From a virus: a stretch of 24,403 nt of DNA. The position numbers and the translations under genes were made by a program. Each line of letters starts with the position of its first letter. Within the stretch, counting starts at the first letter, position 1. The notes under the pieces are model-generated. The model was not told where the DNA came from. It searched no databases and saw only the letters and a program-made list of their open reading frames with translations. This document shows, in pieces, positions 1-20,422 of the stretch. The stretch lies in the IMG/VR virus record IMGVR_UViG_3300046740_000065, positions 1 through 24,403 of that record. One strand, given 5' to 3'.

Positions 1-2202
1 GCTAGCAACCGCCGTGATGTTAGTCGTCACGGTAACACCCTTCTTGACCTTCTTCTCACGATGCTTCTGCACAATCATTTCCGCAAGTTCCTTTGCAAAA
101 GCACCCTCATTCCACACCGGCTGGGCTTCACCCTTATTCATGGCCGCGTGGAAGTTCCGACGCTTAGTCTCAACCAATCCACCGATGTGCTGGTCGATAG
201 TTCCCTCAGCCTCAGGGCAGGTGATGTTAATGACATTCGACACCTGACCGATACGACGGAAGCGTCCCGGTGTAGCTTGGTCCTCATTCTGTGGATTCCA
301 CTGACGCTCATGCAGGATGCTATCTGCACAAGTCTGAAGGTTAAGACCTTCACCACATGCCAGCGTTGATGCAATCATGATGCAACGCTTGGTAGTGTTG
401 AAAGTTTCCTGCGTCTGGTAACCCTCAGGCTTGCCAGTGTGCTTCGACGTATACTGAAAGACGCTAACTTTCTCATCCTTCAGTGTCTGAGCCAACTCAT
501 ACCAATCAGGATTGCTACCCTTATCGGTATTGGTCAGTGCCGACAGCATCAACTCGCCAACATCCTTGTGATGAACGAATACCACCAGCTTTCTGTCAGT
601 GTCCTCGATGAACTGTTCAATGAACGACAGAGTAGCAGGAATCTTCGCCAATCCAGTGATATGGCGCATCCTCGACATCTTCGCGAGGATTTCGATGCTG
701 CTAATCTTATCTTCTTCGCCTGACATAACGTATTCGTTATACCAAGCAACGAAGTCGCTCACACTGTCATCGTATGAACTCTGTTCCAACTCATCAAGTT
801 GGACATTCAGCTTCATACGATTGATGTCAGGGAACTCGTCCATTACCTCATTGTATTCACGCCGAATGAGGAGCGATGAAACGTATTCCTTGAACTTCTC
901 AGGACGGCGAATACCGCCCATCTTCTTCTTGGAACCTTCCCAATAGAAGTCCACCCACGTATCAAGGTAGTTCTGATACGAGTAGAACTTGATAGGGTCG
1001 ATAAGGTTCAGCGCAGGGAAAAATTCACTGCCACGATTCTTCCATGGTGTTCCGGATAGCTCGATAACCTTACAATCGGCATTGGCTGAAACGAGCTTCC
1101 GAACTTCCTGCGTCCTCGAACTATCAGGGTTCTTGATTTGCTGGACTTCATCGAGAATGACAAGCTCGATACCCAGCTTGTGGAGTTTCTCACGGGGGAA
1201 ACGACGTAGCAAGTCATATGGGATAATGTAGAGTTTCAGGTTCGGCATCAGATAATCCTTCGACGTTGAGATTATCTGACTAATAAACTCCGGTCCAAGC
1301 CACGTCACAGCAGCCTTGAACCATTGGAATTTGATGGCAGACTTGGTAACTACCATCGTTTTCTTGTGCTTCTTGGCATGGAACTTCAGATATGCGAGGG
1401 CTTGCATCGTCTTGCCCAGCCCCATATCATCGAAGATTCCAAAACCTTTCTGCATTGCAAGTGCTGCTTCACAAGCGCGAGCACCTACAACCTGAAAATC
1501 ATACAGCTTGAACTCACCACACTTCCTGCACTGATTCGATGGAATGTGATTGGTTTTCGCTTCCTCACGCGTGGGCCAATCATGCTTACAGGCTGCAATC
1601 TCAGGCTTCCAGAAATTGCTCACCATTGTCTCAAACGGTGTGCCTTTCGGAATGATACGCTTGATGATATGGAAGCAGTCCAGCGTAATGAGCTTGACAA
1701 CATTACCCTGCTTGTCAACAGTCTCAAACGCGAACTTCTCAACTGCTACCTTACCACACTCCGGGCACTTGTCTTGTAGCCGTGTCACCTTGTGAGTTAC
1801 ATTCCTAACAACTTGCTCAACTACTTTCTCAGTTACCTCGACCTCAACACTGTGACCTGAGCGAATTGCATCAATCACATGCGCGGGAAGGTCAAGGTGT
1901 GAGCAGGGGAATGTATTCGTGCAACCAATCTCACGCGCCTTTGTAGCCCACACATCATTATGTCCCTGACGAGGACAAAGCGCGTGGGCTACTTCATGCA
2001 AGATTGTGTCGATAACTTCCTCACGCGGGTGAATGTCGATGTGATGACCATTCAGCAAGATGCACTTATCAGCATACATGCACTTGCCAAGAAACGGCAG
2101 GGTAATGTCAGAAGTAATCCTGACTCCCCAATCTTTTAGGCCGTAATCATCTAGCTTTTTACGGCACAGCAACGATGCTGCGTGTCGGTCCATTATGTTC
2201 AT
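1..2202 (-). CDS. SprT-like metallopeptidase fused to SNF2-family helicase (3' end outside window)
   Basis: Seen: 734 codons stay open to the window edge, so the C-terminus is missing. Residues 1-100 look like a SprT/Spartan-type zinc peptidase, with HEVAH at 69-73 and a third histidine at H81. Cys pairs follow (CPEC 146-149, CRKC 225-228) and probably bind zinc. An SNF2 (superfamily 2) ATPase follows: Walker A GLGKT 261-265, DEVQ at 351-354 (usually DEAH), SGTP 383-386, TLACGEGLNLQ 613-623 and Q642..R647..R650..GQ 652-653, which fits motif VI. Known: SNF2 proteins move along or remodel duplex DNA; SprT-type domains cleave DNA-bound proteins. Inference: it may clear proteins from phage DNA during replication or repair. 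The ATG at 2202 has GGGAG about 8 nt upstream and begins 2 nt after the preceding stop; a second ATG at 2193 is possible. Confidence 0.9.
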   Translation of the reverse strand, partial: MNIMDRHAASLLCRKKLDDYGLKDWGVRITSDITLPFLGKCMYADKCILLNGHHIDIHPREEVIDTILHEVAHALCPRQGHNDVWATKAREIGCTNTFPCSHLDLPAHVIDAIRSGHSVEVEVTEKVVEQVVRNVTHKVTRLQDKCPECGKVAVEKFAFETVDKQGNVVKLITLDCFHIIKRIIPKGTPFETMVSNFWKPEIAACKHDWPTREEAKTNHIPSNQCRKCGEFKLYDFQVVGARACEAALAMQKGFGIFDDMGLGKTMQALAYLKFHAKKHKKTMVVTKSAIKFQWFKAAVTWLGPEFISQIISTSKDYLMPNLKLYIIPYDLLRRFPREKLHKLGIELVILDEVQQIKNPDSSRTQEVRKLVSANADCKVIELSGTPWKNRGSEFFPALNLIDPIKFYSYQNYLDTWVDFYWEGSKKKMGGIRRPEKFKEYVSSLLIRREYNEVMDEFPDINRMKLNVQLDELEQSSYDDSVSDFVAWYNEYVMSGEEDKISSIEILAKMSRMRHITGLAKIPATLSFIEQFIEDTDRKLVVFVHHKDVGELMLSALTNTDKGSNPDWYELAQTLKDEKVSVFQYTSKHTGKPEGYQTQETFNTTKRCIMIASTLACGEGLNLQTCADSILHERQWNPQNEDQATPGRFRRIGQVSNVINITCPEAEGTIDQHIGGLVETKRRNFHAAMNKGEAQPVWNEGAFAKELAEMIVQKHREKKVKKGVTVTTNITAVAS

Positions 2203-2435: not shown

Positions 2436-3161
2436 CTAGTTTGTCTCAGACTTTGATTCGTTGATGCTCCGACGCAGCATGTTAGCCGCAGCTTCGACAG
2501 TAATACCGCGTGACACCACGACAGTTTGCAGAGTGAACTCGCTGATACCAAGTTCCGCCGCATACTTGCGAAGCTCAACCTTATCGAGCTTCGTAGCTTT
2601 TTTGGTCTGAGACGTGGAAACCCGCTTTACGGTAGGCTTAACAGTAGCAGGCTTGTAGTTGATATCAGCAATCTTCAATTTCTCACGTTCTTCGACACGG
2701 AGAGAATTGGCAAGCTGATTCAGGTAGACTTGGATAGCTTTCTGATGATTACCAGCCTCTACAATTTGCTGCTGGGCGTCAAAAGCTACCTGTTTGAAGT
2801 GATTAAATCTCTCCGTGAGAACTTCGGCAAGCGCGTATGGCTTGTTAGAAATCTCAGGATTCTCATCAATGGATTTCTTCAAATCCACGATGGCAGTAGT
2901 GGCAGCATTGAATAGGTCCGTGCGAACTTGGACCGCGCTATCAGTCAGGCGCGAAGCATCAATAACTTTCGCCTCAGGACTGCTAGCAAATGCCGCTACG
3001 CGTGTATCTTTCTGCTCTTGTGAAAGCTGAGTGCTGGCTGCTGATTCAGTAGCCCAGCATTCATCGCAGAACCACATGTTACCATAGTGACAGGTGATGT
3101 TGACGTCTACTTTATCGCAGACTTCACATTCACCTTTCTTTACTAGTTGCGCTATTGACAT
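2436..3161 (-). CDS. Cys-pair (zinc-binding?) hypothetical protein, 241 aa
   Basis: First gene of the leftward unit reading into the helicase. Seen: the N-terminus has CEVC at residues 13-16, a further Cys about 12 residues on, and CDEC about 8 residues after that, suggesting a small zinc-binding module. The middle (about 50-165) is helical in character and rich in Ala, Gln and Glu. A Lys/Thr-rich linker follows, then a compact C-terminal segment (KVELRKYAAELGISEFTLQ onwards) that could be a small helical DNA-binding domain. The ATG at 3161 has GAGGGAC just upstream. It borders the 1.1-kb repeat region, so a role in binding it is possible, but position is the only support. The family was not recognised. 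Confidence 0.8.
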   Translation of the reverse strand: MSIAQLVKKGECEVCDKVDVNITCHYGNMWFCDECWATESAASTQLSQEQKDTRVAAFASSPEAKVIDASRLTDSAVQVRTDLFNAATTAIVDLKKSIDENPEISNKPYALAEVLTERFNHFKQVAFDAQQQIVEAGNHQKAIQVYLNQLANSLRVEEREKLKIADINYKPATVKPTVKRVSTSQTKKATKLDKVELRKYAAELGISEFTLQTVVVSRGITVEAAANMLRRSINESKSETN

Positions 3162-3448
3162 TGTGTCCCTCAGTCTCAGATTCTACAATATTATCGACCG
3201 TCGGGCCGTCGGCCCAGAGCCATAAGGTGCAAGAATCATACCTAATCCGGCGCAGCCCACTTCCACAATATGATGGGGTGCCGTAAAGTGTCACACCATA
3301 TGTTGGGGCTACAGCAAGTCTCGTGCCACCGGAATTTTGGATAAATCCAACGAAATGGATACGGAAGATTGGATTTTATGTCCTATTTAGAGGACACTTT
3401 TATTAAGGTATTGCGCCTATACTACTATAACTAGTATTCCGGAATATA

Positions 3449-3514
3449 CTTCCTACCTCATTCTTACCTCAGGCTTACCCCTTTCTTACCTCACCCCTAC
3501 CTCATTCCTACCTC
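3449..3514 (-). repeat. left iteron array: six 11-bp repeats, consensus GAGGTARGRAT on the minus strand
   Basis: On the plus strand TACC recurs at 3454, 3465, 3476, 3487, 3498 and 3509, exactly 11 bp apart. Read on the minus strand, the units are GAGGTAGGAAT, GAGGTAGGGGT, GAGGTAAGAAA, GGGGTAAGCCT, GAGGTAAGAAT and GAGGTAGGAAG. Eleven bp is about one helical turn, so a bound protein would sit on one face of the DNA. It mirrors the array at 3776-3841. Confidence 0.93.
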
Positions 3515-3624
3515 GGTTTTCCCCGTAAGTCGTTGAGCCACAAGGGTTTAGCTCGACCCCCCTGATTCCGGTAGGGTCCGGCATACACCTTGGAGTGTCC
3601 TAGATAGTGGACGGGGTAGGGTAG

Positions 3625-3660
3625 TATAATATTATATATTAAAAAAAAAAAAAAAAAAAA
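3625..3660. other. AT-rich core: TATAATATTATA palindrome followed by an A20 tract
   Basis: A 12-bp palindrome (3625-3636) is followed by 20 consecutive A (3641-3660). The midpoint of the two flanking 11-bp arrays is 3645, inside the A tract. Such a tract is stiff and easily melted, which suits an origin unwinding element. The exact A count in an assembly may be unreliable. A TATAAT match lies here on both strands but without a -35 element. Confidence 0.8.
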
Positions 3661-3775
3661 TAAAAGAGAACAACTCCCCCCACTACCGGAGGCGCTCAGA
3701 GGGTGCCCCAGCCTACCCCCGGAGAGGGAGGGGTCTAGCTAACTCGTTGCACTAGAGGCACTTAGAGCGATTCGG

Positions 3776-3841
3776 GAGGTAGGAAAGGGGTAGGAGTAGG
3801 GTAGGAATACGGTAGGGCTAAGGTAAGAGAGAGGTAAGAAG
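3776..3841 (+). repeat. right iteron array: six 11-bp repeats, consensus GAGGTARGRAT on the plus strand
   Basis: GGTA recurs at 3778, 3789, 3800, 3811, 3822 and 3833, exactly 11 bp apart. The units are GAGGTAGGAAA, GGGGTAGGAGT, AGGGTAGGAAT, ACGGTAGGGCT, AAGGTAAGAGA and GAGGTAAGAAG. Copy number, period and consensus equal those of the left array, in opposite orientation. Confidence 0.93.
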
Positions 3842-3895
3842 CACGTTCCATTATTGTATTGGTTGCATGTTTCAAAATAACAGATGCGAAGATAC

Positions 3896-4246
3896 GATTA
3901 GCAGAAATACTTTCGGTATCCGAAACAATGATTAGCAAAAACACTTCAGGTATCCTGAACCTCGCGCGATGGCCCTGCTTATGGAGTGCCCGCGATTAGC
4001 AGAAGGCATAACACCGTGGCCCTACTCGTGATTAGCAATAGGGGAAGTTCACATAATCGCGAGGTTTATAATATTATAAAGGGTTGTTGATTAGCAAGGG
4101 GACTTCGGGTATCCCGAACTTCCCGGATGGAATTGATTAGCAATGACACTACAATTAGCATTGGGACTTCCGGTATCCGGAACAGTAGGCAGGCGACTTG
4201 ATTAGCAGCTGGTGAACAACACTTGCCCTCGATTCTCTGATTAGCT
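3896..4246. repeat. nine GATTAGCA-type direct repeats, four coupled to covarying hairpins
   Basis: GATTAGCA or a one-base variant starts at 3896, 3930, 3994, 4030, 4089, 4135, 4153, 4200 and 4239, always in the same orientation. At 3896, 3930, 4089 and 4153 it is followed by exactly 5 nt, then ACTT, then a hairpin: TTTCGG-TAT-CCGAAA, TTCAGG-TAT-CCTGAA, TTCGGG-TAT-CCCGAA and TTCCGG-TAT-CCGGAA. The composite unit is 31 bp (3896-3926, 3930-3960, 4089-4119, 4153-4183). Stem positions change in pairs, so base pairing or dyad symmetry is conserved. Spacing between units is irregular. The function is unknown. Confidence 0.92.
4065..4080. repeat. 16-bp perfect AT palindrome containing ATAATATTAT
   Basis: TTTATAATATTATAAA is its own reverse complement. 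Its core ATAATATTAT also occurs at 3626-3635 and 6483-6492, and a near copy (AATATTAT) lies at 3187-3194. All copies found are in the two non-coding regions. Confidence 0.85.
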
Positions 4247-4258
4247 ACTGAGGACAGT

Positions 4259-4291
4259 CCCCCTTTCGGGGGTCCAGCCCTACTCGGCTGG
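4259..4291 (-). terminator. double hairpin at the end of the leftward small-gene operon
   Basis: Read leftward, CCAGCC-GAGTAG-GGCTGG (4291-4274) carries the stop codon of the 79-aa gene in its loop. It is followed at once by CCCCC-GAAA-GGGGG (4272-4259), a GNRA-type tetraloop stem. No U tract follows, so this is not a classical intrinsic terminator; it could instead protect the 3' end or pause transcription. Confidence 0.5.
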
Positions 4292-4519
4292 TATGAATCC
4301 TTTCTCGCCCTGGACGTATACAATCTTGCGGTCACTGAACAGTGGACCTGCGACGTGTAGTCTGCGCCACACATGTGGATGTGACCAGAGTAACTGGCAT
4401 CCACACTTGCAGGGTAGCAGTATGTCTCCCTTGATGCGAAGTTCTACTGCTGTGAGAAGTGCCCCACAATCGGGGCACCTCTTGGGTGGAGCGAAACCCT
4501 TCATACCGAATCTGAGCAT
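4280..4519 (-). CDS. small zinc-ribbon-like hypothetical protein, 79 aa
   Basis: Last gene of the leftward small-gene operon. Seen: CPDC (about residues 17-20) and CKCGC (about 37-41) form a plausible four-Cys zinc site; the C-terminus has short basic and hydrophobic strands. The start is decided by AAGGAG at 4526-4531, which is 6 nt from the ATG at 4519 but only 3 nt from the adjacent ATG at 4522; either is possible. It begins directly after the upstream gene's stop, implying coupled translation. Small zinc-ribbon proteins in phages may bind nucleic acid or host proteins; no specific function can be assigned. Confidence 0.75.
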   Translation of the reverse strand: MLRFGMKGFAPPKRCPDCGALLTAVELRIKGDILLPCKCGCQLLWSHPHVWRRLHVAGPLFSDRKIVYVQGEKGFIPAE

Positions 4520-5518: not shown

Positions 5519-5869
5519 TTACTCGGTTGCAGTCTGCGCGGCAAGCAGGGAATCGACCTGCTTACGTGCAGCATCTTCCGGAACACCCAGCCGAATGTAG
5601 TCGCGCACCATGCGCTCCTTGATTTCATCCGGCGTGACTTCCGACGGGCGATACGGCAACAGTGCAGCCTGATACGCATTGCTCCGCGCATTGGCTTTGA
5701 GCACATCATTGACCATTGAAGTGATGTCCCACTTCTTTTCGGCAATGACAGCCGTTGCCTCATCGAGAGTGTTGCACTTTCGGAATTCGAAAGTTTTCTC
5801 GATTTTGTCGCCCGCCTGCGGGTGACCCTCGGGGATTGCAAAGGTGAACTTGCCAACCAGTGTTTCCAC
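5519..5869 (-). CDS. hypothetical protein, 116 aa, GTG start; first gene of the leftward operon
   Basis: The frame is open to an ATG at 5932, but the -10 element of the promoter lies at 5923-5928, so that ATG is upstream of the transcript. The GTG at 5869 has a perfect AAGGAG 5 nt upstream (5875-5880) and is chosen; an ATG at 5905 has no ribosome binding site. The N-terminal half has strands (VETLVGKFTFAIPEGHPQAG), the middle is helical (TLDEATAVIAEKKWDITSMV), and the C-terminus is helical and Arg/Ala-rich (DEIKERMVRDYIRLGVPEDA). As first gene behind a strong promoter it may be abundant early. The family was not recognised. Confidence 0.75.
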   Translation of the reverse strand: METLVGKFTFAIPEGHPQAGDKIEKTFEFRKCNTLDEATAVIAEKKWDITSMVNDVLKANARSNAYQAALLPYRPSEVTPDEIKERMVRDYIRLGVPEDAARKQVDSLLAAQTATE

Positions 5870-5922
5870 AACGACTCCTTGGGTTGACCGTGGCGGATTT
5901 GCCATCGGTCCAGCGTAGAACC

Positions 5923-5951
5923 ATTCTAGCATGGGCCAGACAATTTGTCAA
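5923..5951 (-). promoter_or_regulatory. strong sigma70-like leftward promoter
   Basis: On the minus strand, TTGACA (5951-5946) and TAGAAT (5928-5923) are separated by 17 nt, close to ideal for a bacterial housekeeping sigma factor. Transcription would start near 5916, giving a leader of about 47 nt to the GTG at 5869. The -35 overlaps one of two ATTTGTCAA copies (5943-5951 and 5964-5972) 21 bp apart, which could be operators. Confidence 0.85.
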
Positions 5952-16496: not shown

Positions 16497-16808
16497 ATGC
16501 CAAGCAATGACCTCAACTTCCAGAACCTTTCGTCGGTTCAGGGAGCACAGCAGCCAAAGCCCAACACTATTGCGTCAGCAACTGTTGTAGCACCTCAGTC
16601 GTTCATTTCGTTCATCAGTGGGACCGCTGCAATTGCAACGATTACCCCACCTGCTGACGGACAGCACGAATTGGTGTTCATTTTCACCACGACTACTCCC
16701 ACGGCGTTCACTACGTCTGGTAACATCAAGACTGTAGCTACGCCTTCCACAAGTGTTCCTGTGCTGCTGTTCTACGACCCCAGCACGGCGAAATACTACG
16801 TGAAATAG
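16497..16808 (+). CDS. small beta-rich head protein, 103 aa (decoration-like)
   Basis: Directly after the capsid gene, with GGGGG 4 nt before the ATG. Seen: a short polar N-terminus then a beta-rich domain (FISGTAAIATITPPADGQ ... SGNIKTV ... LLFYDPSTAKYYV). The domain aligns loosely with the 99-aa protein at 20123 (pattern I.GT..I.TI.P...G...GNI). Position and fold suggest a capsid decoration or stabilising protein; this is inference. Confidence 0.75.
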   Translation: MPSNDLNFQNLSSVQGAQQPKPNTIASATVVAPQSFISFISGTAAIATITPPADGQHELVFIFTTTTPTAFTTSGNIKTVATPSTSVPVLLFYDPSTAKYYVK

Positions 16809-20122: not shown

Positions 20123-20422
20123 ATGATTCCTGGACGTATTGCAAGGCTGAGTGAGGAAACTCAAGCATCAGCCACAGCTATTGGCCCCGTAAAGAGTGAT
20201 ATCGTCAAAATCACAGGGACCACTCAGATTGACACCATCGCGCCTGCTCCCGCGGGTGGATACACATGGGGTCAGTTGATTATTCTTATTCCTGTGGATG
20301 GTTCTGTCATCCTTGGAACTGGTGGTAACATTCTCGTAGGTATTACTGCCGTAATCAATCGTGCAGTATTCCTGACTTGGGTTGTCAGCCTCCAGAAGTG
20401 GGTAATCAACTCGGGCGTGTAA
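20123..20422 (+). CDS. small beta-rich protein, 99 aa, related to the 103-aa protein near the capsid gene
   Basis: GGAGG lies about 7 nt before the ATG. The VKITGTTQIDTIAPAPAGG ... GTGGNILVG ... WVVSLQKWVINSG layout parallels the 103-aa protein at 16497, suggesting a duplicated fold used at two virion sites. Located between the connector-like and tail genes. The exact role is unknown. Confidence 0.7.
   Translation: MIPGRIARLSEETQASATAIGPVKSDIVKITGTTQIDTIAPAPAGGYTWGQLIILIPVDGSVILGTGGNILVGITAVINRAVFLTWVVSLQKWVINSGV

Follow-up and report, generated by a model that had tools for sequence, protein, structure and literature searches.

What is the function of a pair of mirrored repeat arrays set around a run of A in the genome of an uncultivated phage? 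The arrays span positions 3449-3841 of a 24.4-kb phage fragment (IMG/VR record IMGVR_UViG_3300046740_000065, positions 1 to 24,403; hereafter the window), within an intergenic stretch (3162-4279) between two leftward genes. An earlier note on these letters had taken the site for a phage origin or a centromere-like site. Judging from sequence comparison, the site is probably the genome replication origin of a lytic, circularly mapping phage clade, with a mirror-symmetric iteron layout. This reading is the best supported because the site is present in a single copy, stands beside a replication operon, holds the least stable DNA, and keeps its symmetric layout in twenty phages.

Mirrored arrays around an A/T core

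The site is built from the following central features:
3449-3514, minus strand: left array, six contiguous 11-bp units with the core GGTA.GRA, pointing left.
3776-3841, plus strand: right array, six contiguous 11-bp units pointing right, the mirror of the left array.
3625-3665, no strand: A/T core, consisting of TATAATATTATATATT, A20, and TAAAA, a probable melting element.
3641-3660, plus strand: A20 tract, the sole run of at least 12 A/T in the window.

Units start at 3449, 3460, 3471, 3482, 3493, and 3504 on the minus strand and at 3776, 3787, 3798, 3809, 3820, and 3831 on the plus strand. All twelve contain GGTA without variation, in register at a spacing of exactly 11 bp, which bears out the 6 + 6 mirror-oriented arrays first described. 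The arrays are real and far beyond chance. Their z scores were 12.0 and 10.2, where 300 Markov-1 windows reached no more than 6.94, and six in-register copies of TACC or GGTA at any period from 8 to 14 have a chance expectation of about 1e-10. Compared as inverted repeats, the left and right flanks match at 41/55 positions (null maximum 33). The unit consensus given in the earlier note, GAGGTARGRAT, proved looser than claimed, being exact in two of the twelve units, though its GGTA part stood.

The midpoint of the arrays, 3645, does fall inside A20, with the palindrome TATAATATTATA (3625-3636) adjoining, as had been reported. The lowest stability of any 45-bp stretch in the window falls at the A/T core (-41.7 kcal/mol, against a mean of -61.6 and a standard deviation of 3.7). 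Tandem short repeats in a non-coding region and an A/T-rich, low-stability element beside the repeats are among the features of an iteron-type theta replication origin, and both are found here. Five inner GGTA or TACC strings, also noted earlier, are present where they had been placed, but chance alone would give about 0.9 of each, which makes them weak. With counts this near chance, we rejected them as functional elements.

The site in related phages

The relatives are uncultivated soil phages. Thirty-two viral loci were found through the 241-aa gene adjacent to the site, and the arrays were compared in the twenty phages with both tract flanks readable. A search for the 11-bp arrays, which the earlier note had proposed, was positive in 20/20: mirror-oriented arrays stand on both sides, with a best period of exactly 11 and five to seven units, around a tract of A10 to A25. 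Tract polarity is identical in all relatives possessing a tract. Loci found through terminase add further cases, many of them one-sided, with the contig breaking in the tract. The site occurs once per genome, as a period scan of the array-bearing genomes found no other comparable period-11 array pair. Complete relatives are about 46-47 kb with circular maps (k-mer overlaps of 123-127 bp in G011, G013, and G023).

In seven of nine sequences tested, the A/T core ranks lowest or second lowest in stability among 45-bp stretches. The exceptions were G019, whose arrays show 10-bp slips, and the array-less G020; the contigs of both break in the tract. The distant locus L160 has (TA)n in place of the A tract and retains the right palindrome (listed below) and an 11-bp array, so A/T richness, and not the A run itself, seems to be conserved. 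Further away, the Desulfofustis phage OP947158 (PolA only 25% identical) has an A17 midway between 55-nt inverted arms that match at 41/55 positions (null maximum 33). These arms have an internal period near 8.5 and are flanked by the terminase side on one hand and the early genes on the other. A period scan found no mirrored arrays in the distant PolA/DUF3987 phages PP438425, MW202554, and MW202489.

The unit itself has a constant and a variable half. In the family-wide core, (A/G)GAA(A/T), units agree about as well between phages as within one. At positions 0-5, left/right agreement is 0.39-0.64 within a phage vs 0.25-0.47 between phages, and the overall matching of each left array to its own right array has a permutation p of 5e-5. 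A phage-specific half suggests that initiator specificity diverges fast. We tentatively raise the possibility, itself on the unlikely side, that this half is an address, with each lineage initiating only on its own mirror-symmetric origin. Such an address might then identify the phage's own origin in the face of relatives that infect the same cell, of satellites, or of nucleases directed at origins; concerted evolution would keep the two arrays the same.

The tract is where many contigs begin or end, and terminase genes lie about 2-5 kb away, as they might if this were a genome end, a packaging site, or a concatemer-resolution site cut at the A tract. We consider this quite improbable. More than fifteen contigs cross the tract, and two-sided symmetry is ill-suited to directional packaging. 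The centre has no perfect palindrome; the core is polar (TATAATATTATATATT-A20-TAAAAGA), which argues against a hairpin telomere. Homopolymer-length variation accounts for the contig breaks, which are probably assembly breaks of that origin. The contigs that start or stop in or beside an A/T homopolymer include L002, L007, L124, L133, L137, G018, and G020.

Accessory elements and neighbouring genes

Further elements lie between and around the arrays:
3525-3551: left 27-bp imperfect palindrome, a degenerate copy, 11 bp from the left array.
3739-3765: right 27-bp imperfect palindrome, 10 bp from the right array.
3379-3396: TGTCC-N8-GGACA palindrome, an accessory element.
3596-3612: second palindrome, GTCC-N8-GGAC, adjoining the A/T core.
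3895-4246, plus strand: nine (G/A)ATTAGC(A) motifs, irregularly spaced, near the site.

The 27-bp family has the consensus CTAAGTSNYTSA-NNN-TSARNSACTTAG (CTAAGT...ACTTAG). On each side one copy separates array from tract, mostly 9-15 bp in from the array, and across 43 copies the AAGT/ACTT anchors hardly vary. Palindromes of the TGTCC-N8-GGACA type, which are operator-like, number one to four per genome, and most lie no further than about 700 bp from the tract. Four of the nine (G/A)ATTAGC(A) motifs precede short hairpins (ACTTNNGGTATCCNNAA) whose arms vary by compensating changes, and two of the hairpins in 3895-4246 resemble leftward terminators. A similar hairpin, TTCAGGATACCTGAA, is present in L006 and L008. 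An Rfam search gave no match.

Seven sigma-70-like matches occur in 3150-4300, where 1.5 are expected, and one of them uses the TATAAT of the core. Together with the clustering of operator-like GTCC-N8-GGAC palindromes at the site, this would fit a transcription control region, with a phage regulator bound at the arrays and palindromes, or DNA bent by them around A/T-core promoters, to time early and late transcription. We regard this as unlikely: both flanking conserved genes run leftward, so the site is not a point of transcription divergence, and a long, symmetric pair of arrays around a homopolymer would be unusual for promoters.

The genes that frame the site are as follows:
2436-3161, minus strand: conserved 241-aa gene adjoining the site on the left, with a Cys4 motif, a coiled coil, and a three-helix C-terminus.
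5519-5932, minus strand: conserved gene of about 115 aa, the right boundary of the region in relatives.
1-2202, minus strand: SprT-SNF2 (superfamily 2, SF2) helicase, belonging to the leftward replication/repair operon whose start adjoins the site.

In complete relatives the operon continues with a Cas4-like nuclease, a Sak4-like ATPase, PolA, and a DUF3987 protein. Rightward of the site come a few small leftward genes, then the terminase and structural genes. The 241-aa Cys4/coiled-coil protein and an 84-aa helix-turn-helix (HTH) protein are candidates, and only that, for binding the site. Searches found no GenBank phage relatives of the 241-aa, 115-aa, or capsid proteins, the best GenBank phage match to PolA was 25% identical, and no host or prophage relatives were found in genome contigs.

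Two sets of about 11-bp direct repeats are also what a type II centromere requires, and a weak ribbon-helix-helix protein is encoded in some relatives. On this account the site would be for partition, as in R1 parC, with a ParR-like protein coating both arrays and a filament moving it. We find this very doubtful. The repeat sets are mirrored in 20/20 phages, unlike those of R1 parC, which we take to share one orientation. No ParM, TubZ, or ParA was found in the single complete proteome scanned (G011), StbA_N matched 0/21 records (though its control was silent too), the ribbon-helix-helix matches came from only 4/21 records and fell below the cut-off, and no integrase was seen. Thus, of the two identities first offered, the origin-like one is the better supported; the parallel with R1 parC is weaker, with no ParM-, ParR-, TubZ-, or ParA-like gene found.

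A bidirectional origin is the best explanation for equal, outward-facing oligomerisation arrays on either side of a weak core. The sequence itself shows the layout, period, symmetry, conservation, single copy, low stability, and position of the site; from these we infer protein binding, melting, initiation, and bidirectionality. A putative initiator would oligomerise on each array of five to six 11-bp units; with one turn per unit, all subunits would come to lie on one face, and the two flanks could be wrapped or bent symmetrically. Together with a second factor on the 27-bp palindromes, the initiator would melt the 40-bp A/T core between them. The melted core would then allow helicase and primase to load, and two forks would depart in opposite directions.

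Several results weigh against an origin. No Rep/O-type initiator, which the earlier note had proposed looking for, was recognised; no known Rep family occurs among the 55 proteins of G011, in which unassigned conserved proteins remain. The DnaA box TTWTNCACA has no copy in the window, and most relatives lack one in the 700 bp around the tract on either side. Such boxes occur in many, but not all, iteron-type theta origins. Predicted structures of the 241-aa and 115-aa proteins were moderate models with no significant PDB match. No protein clearly tracks the unit type; many correlations between unit type and protein divergence were tried, and the best of them (r 0.45) is not convincing. The array-to-array distance ranges from 250 to 351 bp across phages. 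Absence of the arrays with the genes kept, which the earlier note had named as telling against its proposal, occurs in two lineages, vs twenty phages with both the arrays and the genes. In G020 (A28/A18) and the contig of L045/L148 (A11), flanking genes and tract are retained but no arrays and no inverted matching are seen, so the arrays are not shared by the whole of the wider group.

GC skew, suggested as a check around 3.6 kb, gave no independent support. Eight genomes have their cumulative minimum no more than about 2.5 kb from the tract; in the window it is near 6.5-7 kb, not 3.6 kb. Top-strand third-position skew is -0.101 for a leftward gene right of the tract and -0.093 for one on the left. 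As the skew follows gene direction on both sides, we rejected it as evidence for an origin.

Some further observations concern genes elsewhere in these genomes. Two small structural open reading frames (ORFs) in the window (16497-16808 and 20123-20422) belong to one protein cluster and are likely a duplicated virion gene. In rotated G011, an early gene at 31511-31744 has an Acb2/Tad1 hairpin domain and is a possible anti-defence nucleotide sponge. An early ORF of about 100 aa at 36987-37289 of the same genome (L054:18889-19188:+) is similar to the first 60 residues of the major capsid protein, with weak matches in G009, G010, G016, and G017. The 62-kb contig G016 (L072-L075) carries two different sets of PolA, DUF3987, and HTH genes and is a chimera or co-integrate; its two PolA proteins are 92% and 77% identical to that of G011.

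Comparison with known systems

The site offers a precise, testable origin candidate for an uncultivated phage clade without a close relative among the GenBank phages searched. We found no description of a symmetric iteron layout for phages in the literature searched. A unit that is part constant and part variable, and matched between arrays, is a natural record of change in DNA recognition and could be used to find the binding protein.

We claim no membership of the site in the systems of herpes simplex virus 1 (HSV-1) OriS, R1 parC, pMV158, or the phage-inducible chromosomal island-like elements (PLE); the comparisons are as follows. The short direct repeats of R1 parC form two sets, each of about five, and a 22-bp two-iteron probe implies 11-bp units (PMC4949242). 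Its sets are described simply as direct repeats, with no mirror known, and the ParM and ParR genes were not found at the phage site. At the pMV158 RepB locus, tandem 11-bp direct repeats are bound by the initiator (PMC4753449). There, three repeats stand on one side only, with a rolling-circle nick site in a hairpin and a RepB initiator, none of which was found at the phage site.

In HSV-1 OriS, inverted initiator boxes flank an AT-rich spacer and are bound by an SF2 helicase (PMC12543377). The inverted layout around an AT element is alike, and an SF2 (SNF2) helicase is also encoded beside the phage site. OriS has three boxes where the phage site has 11-bp arrays, and the likeness is one of layout only, with no homology claimed.

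Iteron origins (lambda O, RepA_N/PLE, and iteron plasmids) share with the site tandem repeats by an A/T-rich element, beside replication genes. Unlike them, the site has two equal outward-facing arrays around the core, contiguous non-palindromic 11-mers, and no known initiator family encoded. PLE has a poly-A tract near its origin, and its repeat/initiator pairs swap specificity (PMC8263062, PMC7145576). In PLE satellites, iterons and initiator domains co-vary fast, and an origin-directed nuclease is thought to select for this (PMC8263062).
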